Source: Actinomycetes bacterium (GTDB lineage Bacteria > Actinomycetota > Acidimicrobiia > Acidimicrobiales > Acidimicrobiaceae). From it: DNA of 8,771 nucleotides. The notes beneath the pieces were generated by a model. It did not search any database. It was not told the DNA's origin and saw only the letters and a program-made list of their open reading frames with translations. Of this stretch, positions 1-8,771 are shown piece by piece (the stretch's first letter is position 1; every line of letters starts with the position of its first letter). Location of the stretch: positions 1-8,771 of the forward strand of contig JAKBSX010000074.1 in the NCBI GenBank assembly GCA_021844725.1, written 5' to 3'. The position numbers and the translations under genes are program-made.

Positions 1-1103
1 AAAAAAATTATCGACGATTGCGAGTCATAATCATTCATATCGGGGCACTCTACAATGAGGTCTGGAAGACCACGCCCAGTTAGTGGTCTTGGGTGTGGTT
101 TTCTGAGTGATTCAAGTTCTAGGGGCCTATCTTCGGCACTGTCTCGTGACTCTTGAAGCGCATCAATATGTCGTTGCACTTCATCTGGATCATCTGGATT
201 AAGGGGAATACCCTGTAGCTTGCATTCGTCGATAATTTTTTTAAGAATCGTAGGAGAACGCTCTTCAATAAACAATTCCCTAAGCGTTCGTAACTCCGAA
301 ACCTCGTGCAAAGCCTTTACTAATTCCGGATTGTCCACTCCATTAGGAGGTATGGCTAAACTGCTGACATTGCAAGCATAGTAAATAGTCTTGCTGGATC
401 GTTCAATCACTTGCATCTGTGCTTTACATTTATCAGGCGGATACCCAGGTAACCACGGACGTTCTCCGTTACAGGGAAACTTTTCATCGGGGTCAAGGGA
501 CCTTTTGCGGCCACAACTACGGCACTCAACAGTTGGCCGTTTTGGTGTGCCTCCTGGTTGATAACGAATATTATCAGGGTGTGGGCAATCTGACCCCTTG
601 CTATCGTGAAGCCAATCAGCCCAAGGGATATCTGATAAATGCCCAATTGGACAAGCCAAAACCACTGGGACTTGAATAGTCGACCATTTGTGGCGGTTGT
701 TATCCGAGCATAAGGAATAGTTGCAATTAAGTGGCTTGTAATCAGTAGGATCTCGCTGGTGAAGATGATGGCATGAGGGGTTCAGGCAATACTCGTAAAG
801 AGGAAACCTCGCAGCCGGAATGATCCAATCACTATCAGGATGGGGCTTGTCTGAAGCGGGCCAAGGGCCGATGAGACGCTTAACGCCAAGGGGCTGTTCC
901 ATATGGGAATCACGAATAGTCAGTTGACGAAGTACATCACCACTATTCAGGTGCTCTGCTTTATCGAGGGAATTCATCCAAATAGGCAAGCCGCATGTGA
1001 TCGCGCATACGCCATTTTGAGTGATCTGTAGGGCACCTGGCCCAAAGGTCGATATAACGTGGGCATGGCGGACTGGGGTGCTAAATGAGTAATTGCTTAC
1101 CAT
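1..1103 (-). CDS. drmB: DISARM protein DrmB (DUF1998 family), N-terminal 367 codons, runs off the left edge
   Basis: Open on the minus strand from an ATG at 1103 to the window edge with no stop, so the gene is partial at its 3' end. Visible hallmarks of DrmB/DUF1998: an N-terminal STFGPGAL segment (residues 18-25), the motif ACPIGHLSDIPWADWLH (150-166), a CRSCGR knuckle (194-199) and CNGERPWLPG (211-220). Further Cys pairs C106/C111, C127/C132, C173 and C226 suggest several zinc-binding sites. In the DISARM family DrmB partners the helicase DrmA in the core DNA-binding complex; that is family knowledge. The start overlaps the drmA stop by seven bases (ATGGTAA), and GAGG elements lie 4 and 10 bases upstream, so translation is probably coupled to drmA. 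The C-terminal part with the DUF1998 domain proper is outside the window, and intactness cannot be judged. Confidence 0.9.
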   Translation of the reverse strand, partial: MVSNYSFSTPVRHAHVISTFGPGALQITQNGVCAITCGLPIWMNSLDKAEHLNSGDVLRQLTIRDSHMEQPLGVKRLIGPWPASDKPHPDSDWIIPAARFPLYEYCLNPSCHHLHQRDPTDYKPLNCNYSLCSDNNRHKWSTIQVPVVLACPIGHLSDIPWADWLHDSKGSDCPHPDNIRYQPGGTPKRPTVECRSCGRKRSLDPDEKFPCNGERPWLPGYPPDKCKAQMQVIERSSKTIYYACNVSSLAIPPNGVDNPELVKALHEVSELRTLRELFIEERSPTILKKIIDECKLQGIPLNPDDPDEVQRHIDALQESRDSAEDRPLELESLRKPHPRPLTGRGLPDLIVECPDMNDYDSQSSIIF

Positions 1104-4100
1104 ATATCCTCATCCTCCTCTTCTATTACTGTAGAAGAGGTAGCGCCAGGCAATCGCTGGACTATGGTGGGAGCAACGCGTATCCAGCGGTCACTGATTT
1201 GCAGAGCGGCCATTTTGTCGACATTTCGCAGACTGGTTAGCACTGGCCAACTCGCAGATCCCTTGGGGCGCTTGGAATCCAAGGGGCGCAGAAACTTTCC
1301 CTTCCCATCGGTTGAACTGGCCATTCCCCAGGGAAGACTTTCATCACTAGCAGCTCGAAGCTCTTCTAATGCTACTTGCCATTGGTCTCGGATCCGCTCG
1401 GCAAGATCATCTGCTTCATCACCAGTCACGCGGCGATCAGCGATACTGTTAACGGCACGTTCCGCAAGATCAATATCATCACGACTGATAGGATCGCTAT
1501 CTCCCCTATCTCTCGTTTGGCGAACAATTGAAGCAACTACACCTCGTAGCCCACGCTCGAGTGTGGCATCCGTGAACGGGGTGACTGTCGCAGGCTCGAC
1601 TGCCTCGTAAAAACGATCATGGTTTGCGATAAATCGTTCATAATGCGAAATATCTCGACCGATATGTGGATCAAGAAGTACCACAACAAGGCCAGGGCCA
1701 TCAGCGGAACGCCCCACTCGTCCTGATACTTGAATGTAGGAGGCAGCCATTTTAGGCTGATGCACGATAGTGAGAAGTCCCAACCTAGGTACATCTACTC
1801 CAACTTCGATGACACTCGTAGCTAAGGCAACGTCTACACAACTACGCTCTGTACGAGAAAGCTGAAGTCGTTCAAGTGCTTCACTTGCTGACTGACTAGA
1901 TGCGCTTGTCAACTCGATATCAAACAGATATCGATGAAATGAGCGCTTTCCTTTTTTCTGATCTCCAGATTGCGTTCCAGTCACATTGGCCAAGTGCCAT
2001 TGATATATCTTTAGATCAGTTGTCAGTAAAGATTTTGCTACCCCAAGATCTCTAAGACTTCCAAAGAACAGCACGTTGGTCCAGTAGAAATCGGCCTCTT
2101 TCTCTGAATCAGGTGCCAATATCCCGGCAGCATGGGCGAGAGCAGCAATAACTCGGGTTTGGACACGAGAGAACTGATTAAGACCCCCGGCACAGACCCC
2201 TATGTACTTTCGAGAAGGAAGACTTTCGTCTACATGAGCGAAGTAGCTGTCTTCAATATCAATGCCGGGAGGTGGAACCAGTCGTACATCATCGCGAAAG
2301 AATACTTCCTTGATCTGGCTTTTGTAAGCTCGGGGCGTAGCGGTGGAGGCTAGAATCCGAGGGTGGCGACCTCCATCATGTTCACATAGCCGGGCAATGC
2401 CAGTCTCATATAACCCAACCAGACTACCAAGTGGACCTGTGATGAGGTGAAGTTCGTCTTGGATGATCAGGTCTGGCGCCTGGTGAGTTCTCTTGCCTTC
2501 TTGATCAATTCCAAAAATTGATCGGGTATCCGATCTCCACGCAAGCTGAGCAAACTTGTCCACAGTTCCAAGAAGAAACGATGGAGGCTTTTTGTAGATG
2601 TCCTCGTCTACTTCATAGACAGGAAGACCCTTCTTCTTATTATTGACAAGGTGAAAATAGCATACAGGATTAGGACAATGGGCTTGCACACGACGACTGG
2701 AAGAAGTTAAATGTTGCACACTATAGCCGCGAACTTTCTCTGCCTGGTCGTATAGCGCTGTCGAACACCACGGACAGCGGCTGAGCAAGAAGGGGCGAGA
2801 TTGTCTTTTGTTATTTTTATTGAAATCATTGAGCTGTTTTATTGCTTCTTCTCGTCTATTTGGCGTACTTGTGCTACCAAGCCATGCTCCGACAGTAAAC
2901 GGGTTTTCCCCAAGCCTTCCCTCCCCCTCCTTCTCCTTTCGTCTAATCACTTCCATTGCACAGATCAACGAGGCGGCTCGCTGGAGCTGTTGGGCAGTAA
3001 GAAGGCGAAGGGTGTAGCGCATCAGGACAACGGTTTTGGGTGTGTTATCGATATCGTGAAGACGTTGCCATAGGATGGTCAAAGCTGCCACAGCCAGATA
3101 CGCTTCGGTCTTGCCTCCGCCGGTCGGCATCCAAATTACATCCACGGCATCACGTCGGTGATGTTCTGGATATATAATTGAAGGCAGATTGGCAAGAAGG
3201 AAAGCGAATTGAAATCCCCGCCAACAGGGAACCTTCTTCGACGCATCAGTGGTGGGTTCTATACCTTCGACGGAGGCTTTTCTGGAGTTTTCATCGAAAG
3301 TGAGCTTGCGTGTGGCACTTTGATACGCCAGCTGCTGCCATGCCATCGCTTGACTCGTCCACTGCAAGCATTGTCGCACATCTGGATCAGCCTCAGCGAG
3401 CTGCCAACCCTCTTTCATGTTTGCCAGAAAATTACGGCATCGCTCTAGGTGTGTCTTTGCGATATCCCAGTGTTCTTCAGGAATCAGATCAAGCATGTTC
3501 TCCTTGGTCGATATCCATTGTCCATAGCCCTCGATCATCCTTTGGACCGCAGAAATCGCAGACGGGTCCCATTGTGCGAGATCTTTCATATTGATCTCGA
3601 TGAGTTCGCCATTAACATCCTTGATGTCGAAACTCGTTGTCTTGACGGAAGAAGCAGGGAATGACTCGGTGGCTATCACCACCTTTCCATTTTGCTCTGT
3701 CACGCTGGCAGCACATCCGTGTCCCACCGCCCGAACGGGTTGATCCCTATATAAGAGGCGAAGGGACTGGTCCTCTTCTTTGCTTTCTTCGCTGAGGGAT
3801 CTATCCTGTCGGTATTCCTGCAAGAATGAGACAGATGAAAGTTCTATCTGAAGACGAGCCTGAAAAAGAACGGATTTAGTCAACTCATCATCATAGCTGG
3901 AAATGTTGCGGATATAGCATGTTACCACTCGTCTCCCCTCTGAATCTGTACGGCGAAACACGGCACCAACCACAAGACTGAGCGCACCATCCTGTAGCGT
4001 TTCCTCCTTTTTCTCCAACGGCTTGGTAACTCCAGACCGTGGCACTTCAAACGTGATTGGATGGCTGATGTCAACCCTATGCCACCACTGTTTGGAGGAG

Positions 4101-4627
4101 CCGGCGACAATGACTCGATACGGCTCATACCGTCCTCCCGTGAGTTGCAACTGAATCGACGGAGTTTCCTCTGTGATCACGAACGATACCCCTATTGCAG
4201 ATGGACGTGGTGACCGTGGGATCGCGATCTCCTCGCTGGGTTCGAGCGGCTCTTTGGGGGACTCGTCGGGGAGCTTTGACTTAGATGAGGCTGAGTTACG
4301 TTTGGCTGTGTCAGCTTCGTCGCCTTCAAATTCTTCATCAACAGGAGGAGTTTGTTCGGCTTGTAATTCTTCCTCGTCATGGATATACAAATTTGGATAG
4401 AGCACTCCTACTCCGTATCTGCTGATGGGTCGGTAAGGAAGAACCTCTTGGTCGTCACGCGCCTGAAATAGGTAACGCACCTCAGATTTTGATTCAAAAG
4501 AGGAATTTTCTGAAATTAGATGAGGATCAGAGCCAGGATACTTGCCTGAAGGATCAACTAAGGGACCGACTAGGTCGCGTCGTAGTGCTTCGATAATATC
4601 TTCGCGTAAAGCTGTTCCGCTAGTCAT
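1097..4627 (-). CDS. drmA: DISARM SF2 helicase DrmA, complete, 1176 aa
   Basis: A full-length SF2 helicase. Motifs: Walker A MPTGGGKTE (500-508), motif II QDELH with D724-H727, motif III STATP (761-765), motif V ATSVIEVGVDVP (936-947) and motif VI QVSGRVGRS (966-974) with the arginine fingers. Between Walker A and motif II lies a probable zinc ribbon, CPWC (618-621) and CPNPVC (651-656). The first roughly 470 residues are DrmA-specific, with an acidic, low-complexity, probably disordered stretch at about 83-135. The length, the extended N-terminus and the DrmB gene directly downstream identify DrmA rather than a generic helicase. DrmA with DrmB forms the ATP-dependent DNA-engaging core of DISARM (family knowledge). 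The ATG start overlaps the upstream stop as ATGA and has a near-perfect Shine-Dalgarno AGGAGGTG. All helicase motifs look intact, so the protein should be active. It ends in an acidic EEEDEDIW tail. Confidence 0.93.
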   Translation of the reverse strand: MTSGTALREDIIEALRRDLVGPLVDPSGKYPGSDPHLISENSSFESKSEVRYLFQARDDQEVLPYRPISRYGVGVLYPNLYIHDEEELQAEQTPPVDEEFEGDEADTAKRNSASSKSKLPDESPKEPLEPSEEIAIPRSPRPSAIGVSFVITEETPSIQLQLTGGRYEPYRVIVAGSSKQWWHRVDISHPITFEVPRSGVTKPLEKKEETLQDGALSLVVGAVFRRTDSEGRRVVTCYIRNISSYDDELTKSVLFQARLQIELSSVSFLQEYRQDRSLSEESKEEDQSLRLLYRDQPVRAVGHGCAASVTEQNGKVVIATESFPASSVKTTSFDIKDVNGELIEINMKDLAQWDPSAISAVQRMIEGYGQWISTKENMLDLIPEEHWDIAKTHLERCRNFLANMKEGWQLAEADPDVRQCLQWTSQAMAWQQLAYQSATRKLTFDENSRKASVEGIEPTTDASKKVPCWRGFQFAFLLANLPSIIYPEHHRRDAVDVIWMPTGGGKTEAYLAVAALTILWQRLHDIDNTPKTVVLMRYTLRLLTAQQLQRAASLICAMEVIRRKEKEGEGRLGENPFTVGAWLGSTSTPNRREEAIKQLNDFNKNNKRQSRPFLLSRCPWCSTALYDQAEKVRGYSVQHLTSSSRRVQAHCPNPVCYFHLVNNKKKGLPVYEVDEDIYKKPPSFLLGTVDKFAQLAWRSDTRSIFGIDQEGKRTHQAPDLIIQDELHLITGPLGSLVGLYETGIARLCEHDGGRHPRILASTATPRAYKSQIKEVFFRDDVRLVPPPGIDIEDSYFAHVDESLPSRKYIGVCAGGLNQFSRVQTRVIAALAHAAGILAPDSEKEADFYWTNVLFFGSLRDLGVAKSLLTTDLKIYQWHLANVTGTQSGDQKKGKRSFHRYLFDIELTSASSQSASEALERLQLSRTERSCVDVALATSVIEVGVDVPRLGLLTIVHQPKMAASYIQVSGRVGRSADGPGLVVVLLDPHIGRDISHYERFIANHDRFYEAVEPATVTPFTDATLERGLRGVVASIVRQTRDRGDSDPISRDDIDLAERAVNSIADRRVTGDEADDLAERIRDQWQVALEELRAASDESLPWGMASSTDGKGKFLRPLDSKRPKGSASWPVLTSLRNVDKMAALQISDRWIRVAPTIVQRLPGATSSTVIEEEDEDIW
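1108..1120 (-). promoter_or_regulatory. Ribosome binding sites for drmB
   Basis: On the minus strand GAGGAGG (1120-1114) and GAGG (1111-1108) precede the drmB ATG at 1103 by 10 and 4 bases. They lie inside the drmA coding sequence, where they encode part of the acidic tail. They decide the drmB start and support coupling of drmB to drmA translation. Confidence 0.75.
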
Positions 4628-6207
4628 TCTCCACCTCCTAAAATAGGCTTATACATTTTCCCTGTATCAGCTTCGATAGCCCGACCCAAATGATTTAGTG
4701 GAACACTGTATGTTCTATCGTCTACGCAAGCTACAACTTCAATGAGCAATATGCCCAAGCGATCACCGTCTACCCTAGCAAAGCCCTCAGCACCAACATC
4801 ATCAAGCCAATTATAGTCCTTTGTCAGAAGACAATCGAGTTCCTTTCTAATTTCCTTTCCAGCCTGTTGGTGAGCCGTTTGCAATCTTTGGAGCCGGTCC
4901 TTACAGGATAGCAACCCAATTGCGTCTATCGCCGTCAAAAGAGGAACAAATCCCCTTTCTCTAGGACATATATATCTTGATTTTGGCACATTGTATAAGA
5001 GCTGCTTCGAATAGTCGGTGGAAAGTCCTGAATTACATAATCTTTGGCATAATTCCTCTTCACCAAATTGATCAATTACTTGTCTCAGTGCGTCCTTTAA
5101 TTGCTTACGATCTTGTTCGGCCTGTTCAATATCTATATCTACCCAATTGTATTTTTCTTGAAGAATGTTGGCAGCCCGATGTTCGATCTCGTCTGAATCG
5201 GCCCCTGATGCTTGCAAAAGCAGCAAGTTCCCCTTATGAAGCTTCTCCACATCACAGTCTTCTGTGCTATCGGAGGTCTCATCGACGACAATTCGTTTAG
5301 GAGTTGGGCCTTGATCGTCAGCAAAGTAAACTATGTGGCCACTGGACAGGCGAACCAAGTGGGCATCAATTCCTTCGTCGGAGTATGCGGTGGGTTTGAT
5401 TGTCCGTGGAGGTGGATCAGGTAGGTTAATGCGGATAATTGGTTCGGGCTGGGTTATGAGAATAGCTGCCGGAAGGTGAGGATGCCTGTCGCCCGACAAG
5501 AGCCAACTCTCATTGAGATCTAGGTTTTCTCCACGTGAATTGATAATGCATACTTTATCGGCAGGTGGAGCAGTCACGAGCCACCCGAATTCGCGAGCAG
5601 CTCTTTGAGCATCTTTCCACAATGATTTGTAGGTCGTAGCGATATTTCCGATGACGACGATGCCTTTGTAGTGATGGCACTCACTTTTGAGTTGGACTGG
5701 CGTTTTAACTGCTGCAATGAATTTTTCCTCATCCAGAAATTCCTTAGTTGGTTCGATCAGCTTCTCGTGATAGACGACTATCACTGCCTCGGGGTGTTTG
5801 TTCTTAGATAATCCATAGTTCGATAATTCATCCAGGACAGCATCCAACAGTGGGGATCGCTCCTCCAAAAGATCTAGTGCAGCACAAGCAAGCTGTAAAA
5901 GAGGGTCTGAAAGTGAGTGATTAGGATGTTTGTCAGCGAAAACCTGACAACATTCAACGAAATTGTTGATTTTCATTGCTGGGTTACTTGGCGCAACGGG
6001 GGCTGACGTAATATCTTTCAAAAGGTCATATCCTCTTTTGACAAGCTTGGATGGTTCATCTGATCCAGGGCTGACTTTGTAGAGGTCGTTGAGATAATCG
6101 TTAAAATCTTTGAGCTGTGGCCATGAGACCGAGCGTATCGAGATGACAGGCTCAGATGCTGCTCGCCAGGTATCCGCTATATAGTCTGTGTCTGGGTGGA
6201 TCACCAT
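4624..6207 (-). CDS. DISARM-associated protein, possibly the C-terminal part of a split DrmE, 527 aa
   Basis: A 527-residue protein with no catalytic motif that I recognise. Residues 140-225 alternate hydrophobic strands and helices (AVIVVYHEKL, KGIVVIGNIA, FGWLVTAPPADKVCII), resembling a degenerate RecA/Rossmann-like lobe without Walker residues. Residues 323-350 read KGNLLLLQASGADSDEIEH followed by helix, a pattern I associate with the C-terminal region of DrmE-type proteins ('Gd-lll-sG-d-I--A'). The gene starts seven bases inside the end of the preceding gene (ATGGTGA overlap), with GAAGAG at 6218-6213 as likely ribosome binding site, and overlaps drmA by ATGA. Together with the upstream 321-aa protein it has about the length I remember for a one-piece DrmE. 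Identification as DrmE is inference from position, size and weak pattern; it could instead be a separate, unnamed DISARM accessory protein. Predicted cytoplasmic, with no signal peptide or membrane segment. Confidence 0.6.
   Translation of the reverse strand: MVIHPDTDYIADTWRAASEPVISIRSVSWPQLKDFNDYLNDLYKVSPGSDEPSKLVKRGYDLLKDITSAPVAPSNPAMKINNFVECCQVFADKHPNHSLSDPLLQLACAALDLLEERSPLLDAVLDELSNYGLSKNKHPEAVIVVYHEKLIEPTKEFLDEEKFIAAVKTPVQLKSECHHYKGIVVIGNIATTYKSLWKDAQRAAREFGWLVTAPPADKVCIINSRGENLDLNESWLLSGDRHPHLPAAILITQPEPIIRINLPDPPPRTIKPTAYSDEGIDAHLVRLSSGHIVYFADDQGPTPKRIVVDETSDSTEDCDVEKLHKGNLLLLQASGADSDEIEHRAANILQEKYNWVDIDIEQAEQDRKQLKDALRQVIDQFGEEELCQRLCNSGLSTDYSKQLLYNVPKSRYICPRERGFVPLLTAIDAIGLLSCKDRLQRLQTAHQQAGKEIRKELDCLLTKDYNWLDDVGAEGFARVDGDRLGILLIEVVACVDDRTYSVPLNHLGRAIEADTGKMYKPILGGGE
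4632..4639 (-). promoter_or_regulatory. Strong Shine-Dalgarno of drmA
   Basis: AGGAGGTG on the minus strand, four bases upstream of the drmA ATG at 4627. It is embedded in the last codons of the upstream gene, encoding part of its Gly-Gly-Gly-Glu end. It is the best ribosome binding site in the operon and fixes the drmA start. Confidence 0.85.
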
Positions 6208-7166
6208 TCTGGCTCTTCGTCCTCTTGGTCGTATGTGGATGTCGGGGGGTGGTCTTCAATCCAGCATCCAACCTCTATTCCGCTGCCTGGTGAGAGCGCA
6301 TTTTTGGCTTGTTCGCTATCCGGCCAGCAAGGCGACCATCCTTCACTAACAATTTCGTCAACGACCGCGACAGACGAAGAAGCGCGGCGACTGAGCAACA
6401 GAACTACAGGAACCTTCGGCCACAAACCACAAGAGCGTTTTAGGCTTGCAGCTTTCCCAACGGTTGTTACTAGACGAGGCTTGACACGACTAAGCCAGGA
6501 ATAATCCCCGTCTGGCGACGGAAGCGATCCTGCAAGCAAGGTGGGATGACGAAACCAACCTGACTTCAGTTCCCCTGTTCCGCAGCGACCTAATGGGTGA
6601 TAGGAGACAAGGGGTGAATTTTCCATGCACACATCGTCTTTAAATCCATCAACGTAACCTACGACCAAGACAGGATGTGCGCTCATGATACTTCGCTGTA
6701 ACCCAGCTATATTTTGCTCACAAGAGAATGCTTTTGAAAGATCTTCAATCTCGTCTTTACATTTTTTGGGTAGACGATCTTTAGGAAATCCATCAGGTAG
6801 AAGATGAACGCTTTTTTTATTTTCCACAAAGACACTCTGCCCAAAGTGAATGTCTCCTTTCGGGTCACGAAAACCCCTTCCATCCTCGAACTTACCGCCA
6901 GTATAGCCAGTAACGGGCATCTCCTCGGAGCTCTTGACCAGATGAGTGCAATCCTCCGTACAGACATCAATTTTCTTCAATGCGCCAAGAGCAATAGCTA
7001 CTGCTGCTAAACGTTCCGTTGGTATAGTAATGATGACACGTAAATTATCTGGTGGATCAAGGGAAGGGGATGCGAGAAATTCACCTATGTCCATGATGCG
7101 TTGAAGACTCTTGGGCATAAATTGACTAGTTTGCTTCTTTTTGAATATTCCGCAACTCTTTACCAC
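6201..7166 (-). CDS. DISARM-associated protein, first gene of the operon, possibly the N-terminal part of a split DrmE, 321 aa
   Basis: A soluble 321-residue protein without a recognised enzyme motif. Hydrophobic strands occur at 43-62 (RVIITIPTERLAAVAIALGA), 165-171 (HPVLVVGY) and 231-260 (RLVTTVGKAASL, then VPVVLLLSRR), suggesting an alpha/beta fold. A short acidic tail (DQEDEEPEW) ends the protein. The start chosen is GTG at 7166, because a TAA stop immediately precedes it in frame and a weak GGAA lies 5-8 bases upstream; later in-frame ATGs at residues 17 and 25 lack any ribosome binding site but cannot be excluded. It is the promoter-proximal gene, and the following gene begins within its last seven bases. 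The order (this gene, 527-aa gene, drmA, drmB) suggests that the pair replaces a single drmE. This is inference; the gene could be a distinct accessory factor. Confidence 0.55.
   Translation of the reverse strand: MVKSCGIFKKKQTSQFMPKSLQRIMDIGEFLASPSLDPPDNLRVIITIPTERLAAVAIALGALKKIDVCTEDCTHLVKSSEEMPVTGYTGGKFEDGRGFRDPKGDIHFGQSVFVENKKSVHLLPDGFPKDRLPKKCKDEIEDLSKAFSCEQNIAGLQRSIMSAHPVLVVGYVDGFKDDVCMENSPLVSYHPLGRCGTGELKSGWFRHPTLLAGSLPSPDGDYSWLSRVKPRLVTTVGKAASLKRSCGLWPKVPVVLLLSRRASSSVAVVDEIVSEGWSPCWPDSEQAKNALSPGSGIEVGCWIEDHPPTSTYDQEDEEPEW
6213..6218 (-). promoter_or_regulatory. Ribosome binding site for the 527-aa gene
   Basis: GAAGAG on the minus strand, five bases before the ATG at 6207, with a second purine-rich AAGAGG at 6226-6221. 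It lies inside the preceding gene. Its presence argues that the 527-aa protein is initiated independently and is not just the product of a broken frame. Confidence 0.5.
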
Positions 7167-7188
7167 TTATTCCAGCAACTCTTTACCA
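7146..7188 (-). repeat. Duplicated leader motif overlapping the first start codon
   Basis: The 14-mer GCAACTCTTTACCA (+ strand) occurs at 7152-7165 and 7175-7188, a 23-base period. The similarity extends into TATTCC (7146-7151 and 7168-7173) with one inserted base in the second copy. Relative to the predicted start of transcription the copies lie at about +8 to +21 and +31 to +44, and the GTG start codon begins at the edge of one copy. Two same-face sites about two helical turns apart could be an operator, or a leader duplication affecting translation. Confidence 0.6.
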
Positions 7189-7194
7189 GTCTGC

Positions 7195-7230
7195 TCAAAG
7201 TATAATATCACTGTTGCTAACTGCCGTCAA
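7195..7230 (-). promoter_or_regulatory. Sigma-70 promoter of the DISARM operon
   Basis: On the minus strand a -35 box TTGACG (7230-7225) is followed after exactly 17 bases by a -10 box TATTAT (7207-7202). Transcription would begin near the A at 7195, giving a leader of roughly 29 bases before the GTG at 7166. This is a near-consensus housekeeping promoter directed into the four-gene operon. No other good promoter is apparent inside the operon, whose genes all overlap. Confidence 0.75.
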
Positions 7231-7244
7231 GGGTGTATCCATTC

Positions 7245-7460
7245 GTGCGTCCAGCAGCTCGGGTGCCATGACCCGAAAGGAGCAATTATGACATAGCCGA
7301 GCGATAAGTTCACAACAACCAACCGATGAAAATTCGGTCCAGGGAGACGCCAAGGTCCCTGGTAGTGAAGCCTCTAGCGTAGATCGAGAGGTCTGCTCTA
7401 AAGCGGGGTGGAACAAATTGGCAGTCCGCAACATAAAGTGAAGCTTGCAGCGTCGTTAAC
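7245..7460 (+). mobile_element. Possible 5' fragment of a group II intron (domain I-like), truncated
   Basis: The segment begins with GTGCG, the typical 5' end of group II introns, and has a run of compact hairpins: TCGGGT/ACCCGA (about 7258-7275), CCAGGGA/TCCCTGG in 7338-7361, and CCTCT/AGAGG just after. Unpaired purine-rich linkers such as GAGCGATAAG lie between them. The layout and several short stretches resemble bacterial group II intron domain I. Only about 215 bases are present: no reverse transcriptase or domain V can be seen, so it would be a dead remnant cut off near the IS66 fragment. The right boundary is approximate. No convincing protein is encoded here. An unrelated structured RNA is an alternative. 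Confidence 0.4.
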
Positions 7461-7530
7461 TGTAACCATTCAGCACCCTGACCAGGGAATCGCGCGGATC
7501 GCGCGAATATCCACCACTTAACGCGCGCGC

Positions 7531-7718
7531 ATGTATGCTGGTGGCGTGTCGGACAAACCCAGCTACGAAGAGATCGTTGCCGAGAACGATGTTCTTCATG
7601 GGGAGATAGATGTTCTTCGTATTGAGGTGTCCAGGCTTACCGGCCTGACGGAGACTCAGAACCGCAGGATCGCCGAGTTGGAGAGGAAGTCCAGCCGGAA
7701 CTCCTCGAACTCATTACT
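7531..7718 (+). pseudogene. Truncated IS66-type transposase, N-terminus only
   Basis: Translation gives DKPSYEEIVAEND, a leucine/isoleucine-rich coiled segment, then RRIAELERKSSRNSSNS. This is the characteristic N-terminal region of IS66 TnpC-type transposases (KPSYEEL, coiled coil, then a SRNSSNSSKPPSSD-like motif). The match stops at the asparagine-serine repeat, and the frame continues into unrelated sequence to a stop at 7776. About 60 of the usual roughly 500 residues remain, so the zinc-finger and DDE domains are absent. ATG 7531 or GTG 7546 could have been the start; neither has a ribosome binding site. The GC-rich stretch at 7461-7530 (beginning TGTAACC) may hold the left end of the element, but I cannot define the inverted repeat. 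Confidence 0.75.
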
Positions 7719-7770
7719 TGTCAACGGCCACGCTAAAATCCCCACGGACGGCCACGGAATTCCCCAGTTT
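7719..7770. mobile_element. Probable end of an IS21-type element with internal repeats
   Basis: A TGTCAACGGCCACG start is followed by two 24-base-period units: ACGGCCACG with CTAAAATCCCC (7724-7743) and ACGGCCACG with GAATTCCCC (7748-7765). Multiple terminal repeats containing AAATCCCC/AATTCCCC and a terminal TG are typical of IS21-family ends. The join to the IS66 fragment is at 7718/7719, so this element or its remnant seems to have interrupted the IS66 gene. No istA or istB coding sequence is visible nearby, so only an end remains. Confidence 0.5.
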
Positions 7771-7776
7771 GGTTAG

Positions 7777-7890
7777 GCCAGGGGCATCGCCCCCTTTCCA
7801 GAGAGAGCCTGGGCAAGACAGATGGACTTGCCACCCTATCTCGTTGTTCTGCCGTTGATACAGGCAGGGGAATCGATAATCGAGTGAAAC
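7777..7890. other. Non-coding stretch between element end and low-complexity tract
   Basis: No gene is recognised here. It contains two small inverted repeats, GGGGC/GCCCC (7781-7785 and 7789-7793) and GGCAAG/CTTGCC (7812-7817 and 7827-7832). It may be the inner part of the IS21-type remnant, but its identity is not recognisable. Confidence 0.4.
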
Positions 7891-8017
7891 AGTAAATGAG
7901 TGATGTAATGAGTGAGTGAAAAGAATAAGTTAATGATGAGTAATAAAATAAAATGAATGAGTAAATGAAGTGAGTGAGTGAGTGAAAGGTGGTTGGTGTG
8001 TGAGGAGAAAAGGGGGT
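7891..8017. repeat. Cytosine-free low-complexity tract of degenerate GAGT/AATG tetramers
   Basis: The + strand has no C for 127 consecutive bases. It consists largely of four-base-like units (AATG, AGTG, GAGT, GTAA), ending in GTGAGTGAGTGAG, then G/T-rich and G/A-rich stretches. The + strand carries frequent TGA and TAA triplets in all frames. The minus strand lacks G and therefore can contain only TAA stops, which explains long antisense frames there; these are judged spurious. Confidence 0.85.
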
Positions 8018-8025
8018 CGGCACCA

Positions 8026-8042
8026 ATGCACCGGGAGTGCAT
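8026..8042. repeat. Perfect 6-bp inverted repeat
   Basis: ATGCAC (8026-8031) and GTGCAT (8037-8042) flank CGGGA. It separates the cytosine-free tract from the palindrome cluster. It could form a hairpin in RNA or be a protein binding site; no role is evident. Confidence 0.6.
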
Positions 8043-8095
8043 GGCGTTACGTAACAGCAATGTAACCGGGTGGCACGTGCTGGTAACGTTACGTT

Positions 8096-8148
8096 TTTCG
8101 TAGCCGGTTGTACCTAAATGTAGCCGGGTACATTTGTGTTACGTGACA
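8096..8148. repeat. 53-bp direct repeat, copy 1
   Basis: Identical to copy 2 over 53 bases. The unit contains a nearly perfect palindrome, AAATGTA (8116-8122) and TACATTT (8129-8135) around GCCGGG, two GTAGCCGG elements, and the near-palindrome GTTACGTGAC (8138-8147). Confidence 0.95.
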
Positions 8149-8149
8149 G

Positions 8150-8202
8150 TTTCGTAGCCGGTTGTACCTAAATGTAGCCGGGTACATTTGTGTTACGTGA
8201 CA
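8150..8202. repeat. 53-bp direct repeat, copy 2
   Basis: Perfect copy of the preceding unit, separated from it by one base (54-base period). Complete identity between copies indicates a recent duplication or active homogenisation. Flanking sequence contains further single copies of the component motifs. Confidence 0.95.
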
Positions 8203-8275
8203 CAGATGTAACCGTACTCCGCTACTAGCCGTATGAGTGAGCGTTAAGGGTGTAGGCTACATTTGTCTTACGAGA

Positions 8276-8400
8276 GATGAATGCAGCCATACCAGACGGT
8301 CTGAACCATCGAATGACCACCCAAGAGTGGGGGTGGCAAAAAAACCAATAGGAACGCGACTGGCAAATTACGCAGGAATAGTCACCCAGAAAAGTAATAC
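8276..8400. other. Intergenic stretch without recognised gene
   Basis: No coding region is supported. It contains the 11-base palindrome CAGACGGTCTG (8293-8303) and an inverted repeat CCACCC/GGGTGG (8317-8322 and 8331-8336) followed by an A-run. The A-run is on the wrong side and strand for an intrinsic terminator in either direction. Confidence 0.5.
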
Positions 8401-8429
8401 CCTCTTTTTATAATATAAACACAAAGAGG
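8401..8429 (+). promoter_or_regulatory. TATAAT box and inverted repeat covering the small gene's ribosome binding site
   Basis: CCTCTTT (8401-8407) is complementary to AAAGAGG (8423-8429), a perfect 7-bp stem with a 15-base loop. The second arm is the likely Shine-Dalgarno of the small frame at 8435. A TATAAT box lies within the loop (8409-8414); no good -35 box is seen at 17 bases. RNA started from this box (about 8421) would lack the first arm and leave the site free, while read-through RNA could fold and hide it. Confidence 0.4.
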
Positions 8430-8434
8430 CAACA

Positions 8435-8539
8435 ATGCTGAAAGGCGGGTCGGTACCCATCAAGTTAGTTGTCATCTTTTTTCTATTGGCAGTCAAGCAC
8501 CTTGTTGAAAAAAAACATTCGATCAATATATATTCGTAG
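8435..8539 (+). CDS. Possible small hydrophobic protein, 34 aa
   Basis: ATG at 8435 is preceded by AAAGAGG with a five-base gap, a good ribosome binding site. The peptide reads MLKGGSVPIK, then a hydrophobic core LVVIFFLLAV, then a charged, lysine- and histidine-containing tail of 14 residues. One short membrane-associated helix with basic residues on both sides is plausible; the size and shape recall type I toxin or other small membrane proteins, but the core is short and no family is recognised. A TATAAT box lies about 20 bases upstream of the start. No neighbouring gene suggests a role. Chance occurrence remains possible; the case rests on the combination of ribosome binding site, promoter-like box and composition. 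Confidence 0.4.
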   Translation: MLKGGSVPIKLVVIFFLLAVKHLVEKKHSINIYS

Positions 8540-8595
8540 ATAGCCGATACAGTTATGGCGCGTGGATCATCTTTGAGCTAGAATACCTGATCATA

Positions 8596-8615
8596 GGGTA
8601 GAAGTGAATCTACCC
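8596..8615. terminator. Stem-loop downstream of the small frame, weak terminator candidate
   Basis: GGGTAGA (8596-8602) and TCTACCC (8609-8615) form a perfect 7-bp stem with a six-base loop. TTTT follows only at 8627, so it is not a textbook intrinsic terminator. It could end or stabilise a transcript from 8421, or be a binding site. Confidence 0.3.
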
Positions 8616-8650
8616 ACATGGGCAAATTTTACTCCAAACACCATTACCGT

Positions 8651-8671
8651 CGTGCAGAATACGTGCAGAAT
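8651..8671. repeat. Short direct repeat CGTGCAGAAT
   Basis: Two copies, 8651-8660 and 8662-8671, eleven bases apart. An inverted GAATT/AATTC pair (8668-8682) follows directly. This spacing suits adjacent sites on one DNA face. Confidence 0.6.
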
Positions 8672-8682
8672 TGAAATAATTC

Positions 8683-8755
8683 TTGGTGTTTTTCGGTGTT
8701 ACTCGGTATCACTAAATACCAGGTCACAGCGTTGTGTCGAACATACGTCCTGGTA
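8683..8755. repeat. Three imperfect decamers and a flanking inverted repeat
   Basis: TTGGTGTTTT (8683-8692), TCGGTGTTAC (8693-8702) and TCGGTATCAC (8703-8712) form a ten-base-period series. TACCAGG (8717-8723) and CCTGGTA (8749-8755) then form 7-bp inverted arms 25 bases apart. The last stretch to the window edge has no supported gene. It could be a regulatory region of a gene to the right, or a recombination site. Confidence 0.5.
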
Positions 8756-8771
8756 AAAAAGCTGCTTTAAC

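Follow-up and report, generated by a model that had tools for sequence, protein, structure and literature searches.

Two overlapping genes in a bacterial DISARM locus as probable halves of DrmE

Can the DrmE protein of a defence island system associated with restriction-modification (DISARM) be carried by two genes instead of one? The question is raised by 8,771 nucleotides (nt) of DNA from an Actinomycetes bacterium (assembly GCA_021844725.1, contig JAKBSX010000074.1, positions 1-8,771), the whole of which we call the window. To our knowledge, DrmE is a component of class 2 DISARM without a known role. A listing of open reading frames (ORFs) gave four genes on the minus strand in the order small, big, drmA and drmB, with neighbouring frames overlapping by 4-7 nt. 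An initial annotation had taken drmA and drmB as clear, and had proposed that the two overlapping frames ahead of them, for proteins of 321 and 527 amino acids (aa), represent a two-piece DrmE. The ORF listing confirmed both frames (Table 1), and models recognised both DrmA (PADLOC, 1.8e-187; PDB DrmA 7s9v, 6.5e-127) and the product of the cut drmB gene (PADLOC, 5.6e-19; NCBIfam, 4.3e-32), although the scores fell below the NCBIfam cut-offs (809 bits against 950 for NF038325 with DrmA, 112 against 240 with DrmB). We consider it probable, at roughly 0.86, that small and big correspond to the N- and C-terminal halves of DrmE, which was split once in the ancestor of one DISARM branch and has been kept as two co-translated polypeptides. 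Co-linear profile matches, a conserved gene order, a frequent 4-nt overlap and the placement of the split forms on a single side of a DrmA tree support this reading.

Concerning the two window proteins themselves, small was without a match in Pfam, PADLOC and NCBIfam, and big gave only a chance-level Pfam match (0.072) and nothing significant in the three collections, DrmE models included. Neither protein matched an unrelated family, an outcome that would have counted against the DrmE reading. When 5.8 billion proteins were searched with the single sequences, small found only itself and big found two relatives besides itself, at 61-63% identity. Mycobacterium paraense was found to harbour diverged homologs of small (35% identity) and big (27% identity) in the same order as in the window. 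These relatives of big, together with the same-order homologs of M. paraense, indicate that small and big are real genes. As neither window protein matches a DrmE model, the identity of the pair as DrmE rests on its relatives.

Relatives were gathered from plasmids and genomes. In tblastn searches of plasmids, window DrmA matched 75 records, five of which were inspected, and window big gave one weak match, inspected as a sixth record. The pair was present ahead of drmA in Nostoc HK-01 plasmid 1, Rhodococcus opacus B4, Priestia (with big in two pieces in different frames) and D. psychrotolerans. The Nostoc plasmid-4 record contained the pair and stopped soon after, and D. gobiensis (L004) lacked it. 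When the Nostoc plasmid-4 pair was used as the query against plasmids, each of the two proteins found three records. Window big had matches to both Nostoc big proteins, at 1.8e-7 and 1.1e-6. The small and big genes of Nostoc HK-01 plasmid 1 are separated by a transposase gene on the opposite strand (L001:5458-6399); plasmid 4 of this strain has a second small/big pair with no transposase gene between. Scanning genomes with six aligned DrmA proteins yielded 574 loci, of which we took the best 80 ranked by similarity to window DrmA, a choice that enriches the set for split forms. Separate small and big genes were found in 29 of the 80. In the counts of split forms, L003 with its broken big and L020 with its truncated big were classed as split. 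In eleven others of the 80, the big profile matched a single frame of greater length (L025, L028, L030, L035, L036, L040, L046, L054, L061, L063 and L071; L040 only at 5e-3), and the remaining 40 matched neither profile at E <= 0.01, some owing to cut contigs. The profile used here included the window; profiles built without the window and M. paraense (L007) still recovered window big at 5e-24 and window small at 5.2e-5. Viral contigs gave no match in a profile search with the big family, nor did genome contigs in a search with window DrmA alone.

The relation of big to DrmE was examined with these relatives. The one-piece frames of L025, L035, L046, L061, L063 and L071 exceeded the cut-off of DrmE_fam (NF038316), those of L028 and L054 fell just under it, and L040 and L043 gave no match. 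The big proteins matched only the C-terminal part of this model (positions 393-802 and 453-802 for Nostoc, 580-837 for the second Priestia piece), the widest match, 311-833, being found among Bacillales. At E <= 0.01, 14 of 35 big proteins matched DrmE_fam and 21 did not. The big proteins of L005 and L021 exceeded the curated Pfam cut-off of DrmE_C (PF24957); that of M. paraense had no DrmE_C match in Pfam. In a profile comparison with 11 one-piece proteins, positions 19-531 of the big family aligned with columns 344-882 of 892 (P 2.5e-33). Homology of the big family to the C-terminal part of one-piece DrmE was shown by these sequence comparisons. Upstream of drmA, loci L028 (3458-6730), L054 (4897-8214) and L036 (3047-8224) contain single frames of 1090, 1105 and 1725 aa, in which a DrmE-like C-terminal part follows additional N-terminal sequence; the DrmE_fam scan covered the first two of these.

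In the corresponding comparison for the small family, positions 21-288 aligned with columns 36-303 of 892 (P 4.1e-7), so that small and big map onto one-piece DrmE co-linearly and without overlap. Reversed or shuffled profiles, and profiles of NERD, DrmB, methyltransferase and DrmA proteins, gave P values of 0.07 or more. A profile of window small and its M. paraense homolog matched the rest of the small family at 5.7e-14. The ATG at 7118 is the more likely start of small than the GTG at 7166, and the public protein begins there; the public record of big is 526 aa. The summed length of 305+527 = 832 aa agrees with the 838 positions of DrmE_fam, as the initial annotation had expected from the combined size. 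In a Pfam scan of 35 small proteins, three families appeared, each in one member (best E 0.0012).

Several results weigh against small as the N-terminal half. The small hidden Markov model (HMM) found no one-piece DrmE, the profile of window small and its M. paraense homolog set directly against one-piece DrmE gave P 0.6, and the match of the small profile weakened to P 1.4e-4 over 118 columns when 120 further one-piece proteins were added, a skewed set from one search whose members are all 53-97% identical to that of L071. Window small is therefore linked to the N-terminal part of DrmE solely via its family, and the evidence ties the N-terminal half to DrmE less firmly than the C-terminal half. 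The proposed two-piece DrmE is supported for the C-terminal half through relatives, and for the N-terminal half at the family level only. The same results would fit an alternative in which only big derives from DrmE, the N-terminal half having been lost and an unrelated small protein having taken its place. We regard this as improbable, taking into account that a 247-column alignment joins the small family to a part absent from big (P 4.1e-7, against at least 0.28 in 100 shuffles), that the summed lengths equal a whole DrmE, and that small and big occurred together in 19 of 19 cases. These were the split-length big genes of whole-genome loci, each with a small gene directly ahead (that of L093 is cut by the locus end, and some loci are shared with the 80-locus set).

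The junction of the two genes was then compared among 46 pairs, which include the window and exclude one exact duplicate and the transposase-separated pair of Nostoc plasmid 1. The window overlap is 7 nt with the ATG start of big and 4 nt with the GTG start, and in the GTGA found there, TGA is the stop codon of small. Among the pairs, a start codon of big lay exactly at -4 in 33, and 25 of these had a Shine-Dalgarno-like match, compared with 28% at random places. Each half has a start codon of its own; the initial annotation had envisaged separately initiated halves. At the -4 overlap the frame of big is -1 relative to small, and programmed frameshifting might yield some fused DrmE beside the two pieces. 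This is very unlikely, however, as big has its own start, often with a Shine-Dalgarno-like site, and the other 13 pairs have other spacings; by eye, no classic slippery heptamer precedes the window overlap, a dedicated scan not having been made. We give least credence to the idea that the split reflects a faulty assembly, a frameshift or a gene in decay: broken copies do exist in some relatives (Priestia big in two frames, L020 big truncated), but this explanation is contradicted by conservation of the two-frame form, which recurs in eleven named phyla with separate starts, Shine-Dalgarno-like sites and frequent 4-nt overlaps, and by two full-length big proteins at 61-63% identity in other assemblies.

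In a DrmA tree of 85 proteins (a quick, midpoint-rooted tree with no outgroup, 45 rows unlabelled, L005 excluded for its cut drmA), all 34 split rows fell on one side of one branch with a support of 100. The neighbouring group contained seven rows, four with one-piece DrmE and three unlabelled, and two more one-piece rows lay across the midpoint. The split side included one unlabelled row, L051, whose upstream part is cut off; the contigs of L051 and L082 both end ahead of drmA. One-piece DrmE occurs to either side of the split branch, which points to fission rather than fusion, and the one-piece form would be the older state. The named split rows include Actinomycetota, Bacillota, Cyanobacteriota, Chloroflexota, Acidobacteriota and Pseudomonadota. 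Judging from the 29 loci and the 34 rows, many related genomes keep the two-gene form. The split was initially seen as a variant architecture; the two-gene form is indeed real, but rather than a one-off it is, on these sequence data, common to one DISARM branch.

Genome surveys, whose counts include the centre genome, were carried out with two profiles. In the phylum to which an Anaerolineae genome belongs, the big family was found in 11 of 301 genomes, of which 5 were split, 3 apparently one-piece and 3 weak; in the M. paraense order it was found in 9 of 298, with 7 split forms and 2 frames of greater length. DrmE_fam was found in 5 of 249 genomes in the phylum of a Clostridiaceae genome (all one-piece), 3 of 244 in the Nostoc phylum (a split form, a one-piece form and a weak match) and 6 of 249 in the order of Neobacillus (five split, one one-piece). 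It matched 0 of 249 in the phylum of a Burkholderiales genome (G011), which does not speak for absence because the split pair of this genome itself (L027) escapes the model. An intact drmE elsewhere would speak against a split. A DrmE_fam search of eight whole split genomes gave only the split C-half in three (G004, G005 and G009) and nothing in five; as the model misses some DrmE, the absence of an intact copy there is not proof.

What might the two halves do? In predicted structures, the front part of big resembles lobe 2 and the helical insert of Hef/XPF/MDA5 helicases, and small weakly resembles a RecA-type alpha/beta lobe. Foldseek gave no match at E <= 0.001, and a sequence profile of the big family gave no significant match among PDB chains (best E 0.019). 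None of 49 small and none of 48 big proteins contained the Walker A motif (G....GK[ST]), and 1 of 11 one-piece proteins did; the control motif GGGK[ST] was present in 85 of 85 DrmA proteins. Counted anywhere in the chain, a DE.[HDA]-type motif occurred in 4 of 49 small, 7 of 48 big and 3 of 11 one-piece proteins (DE.H in 80 of 85 DrmA), and Q..GR.[GR] in 1, 1 and 0, respectively, although the DrmA control for the latter, Q..GR.GR, was itself found in only 33 of 85. The likeness to the Hef/XPF/MDA5-RIG-I cores lies in the fold predicted for residues 10-244 of big, together with the helical insert; unlike these helicases, the small and big proteins lack Walker A and carry the lobes on two chains. 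From the fold likenesses and the lack of Walker A, the boundary between the two genes probably runs between the two lobes of a dead helicase core.

Judged by the predicted folds, DrmE may be a catalytically dead superfamily-2 helicase-like core, in which small would supply lobe 1 and big would supply the helical insert, lobe 2 and the C-terminal domain of DrmE. The halves would re-associate into one DrmE-like particle, and translational coupling would provide equal amounts of both. Such a DrmE might bind DNA without hydrolysing ATP, and then present the DNA to the active DrmA-DrmB translocase or load it there. The split would lie between the lobes, a place at which a covalent link is required in a motor but perhaps not in a scaffold. 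A more specific and rather doubtful version is that the dead Hef/XPF/MDA5-like core senses DNA structure for DrmAB and that, in one DISARM branch, the separate lobes need to meet before they can close on DNA, lobe assembly itself then being the activation switch.

Table 1. Coordinates of the genes and other features in the window.
Feature	Position	Strand	Remarks
small, candidate N-half of drmE	6201..7166	-	321 aa from GTG 7166 or 305 aa from ATG 7118
big, C-half of drmE by homology of its family	4624..6207	-	527 aa from ATG 6207 or 526 aa from GTG 6204
Stop/start overlap of small and big	6201..6207	-	GTGA, the -4 overlap common in relatives
big, residues about 10-244	5476..6180	-	Helical part and second RecA-like lobe, Hef/XPF/MDA5-like in predicted model
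big, residues about 276-482	4762..5382	-	Matches relatives in which Pfam finds DrmE_C
drmA, YprA-type helicase	1097..4627	-	Shares 4 nt with big; PADLOC, NCBIfam and PDB matches
drmB	3..1103	-	Truncated at window end; shares 7 nt with drmA
Promoter-like site	7202..7230	-	TTGACG-17-TATTAT, TG before second hexamer; consensus match only

The promoter-like site sits 36 nt ahead of the GTG start of small; seven such sites were counted on both strands of 4400-7600, against 4.2 (standard deviation 2.3) in shuffles. Upstream of the operon, two exact 53-nt copies of a repeat lie at 8096-8202 with one base between them, and looser copies of a 38-nt part extend from 8034 to 8292. A short plus-strand frame at 7531-7776 presumably resembles the start of an IS66-type transposase.

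Among the neighbouring genes, 23 of 33 split loci contained, between big and drmA, a gene matching the NERD-UvrD protein of R. opacus by BLAST (Pfam NERD was examined on the R. opacus protein). Its product (e.g. L002:6314-7999) is about 555-595 aa long, once 712, and lies directly before drmA. The gene was missing in the window, M. paraense, the Nostoc loci and Bacilli; L006, cut at the record start, is uninformative. This protein may be the nuclease of this branch, replacing DrmC. A C5-methyltransferase-like gene was detected with one BLAST seed within about 7 kb in 16 of 33 split loci, and DrmMII models matched 2 of 56 further neighbours. The window, which ends downstream inside drmB, showed no frame for a DrmMII C5-methyltransferase. 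Among the matches listed for ten genes lying downstream in relatives were restriction enzymes, helicases and a type III methyltransferase, with none to DrmC, the phospholipase-D-type nuclease; two of the ten lists were limited to 25 entries. In M. paraense, the closest relative, small, big, drmA and drmB are the only genes seen together on their strand.

Class 2 DISARM (PADLOC type II) is listed in a passage of PMC9252829 as DrmA, DrmB, DrmC, DrmE and DrmMII. The window resembles it in having DrmA and DrmB, with the DrmE pair ahead of drmA, but differs in that DrmE lies on two frames instead of a single chain, and its relatives differ in the lack of DrmC among the matches listed and, in 23 of 33 split loci, in the NERD-UvrD-type gene before drmA, which the window and M. 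paraense lack. With respect to DrmE_fam and DrmE_C, the likeness is the C-half homology via relatives; the differences are the two chains and the lack of matches of the window proteins themselves. ARMADA, TALON and other systems described in a YprA-family preprint (PMC12458937) likewise have a YprA-type helicase, TALON also with a NERD nuclease. According to the same source, DISARM encodes DrmA and DrmB separately. Unlike ARMADA and TALON, the window has drmA and drmB as separate genes beside the DrmE halves, and no BrxHII-like helicase or PglX.

Among the published titles listed on DISARM or drmE, we found none on a two-gene DrmE; the original DISARM paper and supplements, which were outside this search, may mention one. 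The term drmE is absent from the main text of the preprint above. A passage in a 2022 DISARM structure paper urges study of the effects of DrmD and DrmE on activation (PMC9142583). The two-gene form also offers two smaller proteins instead of one large protein for structural studies. The split branch is widespread and often missed by current detection models, as with the 21 of 35 big proteins. A natural, conserved split would mark where the domains of DrmE part, and the predicted folds offer a first testable function for DrmE, that of a dead helicase scaffold.
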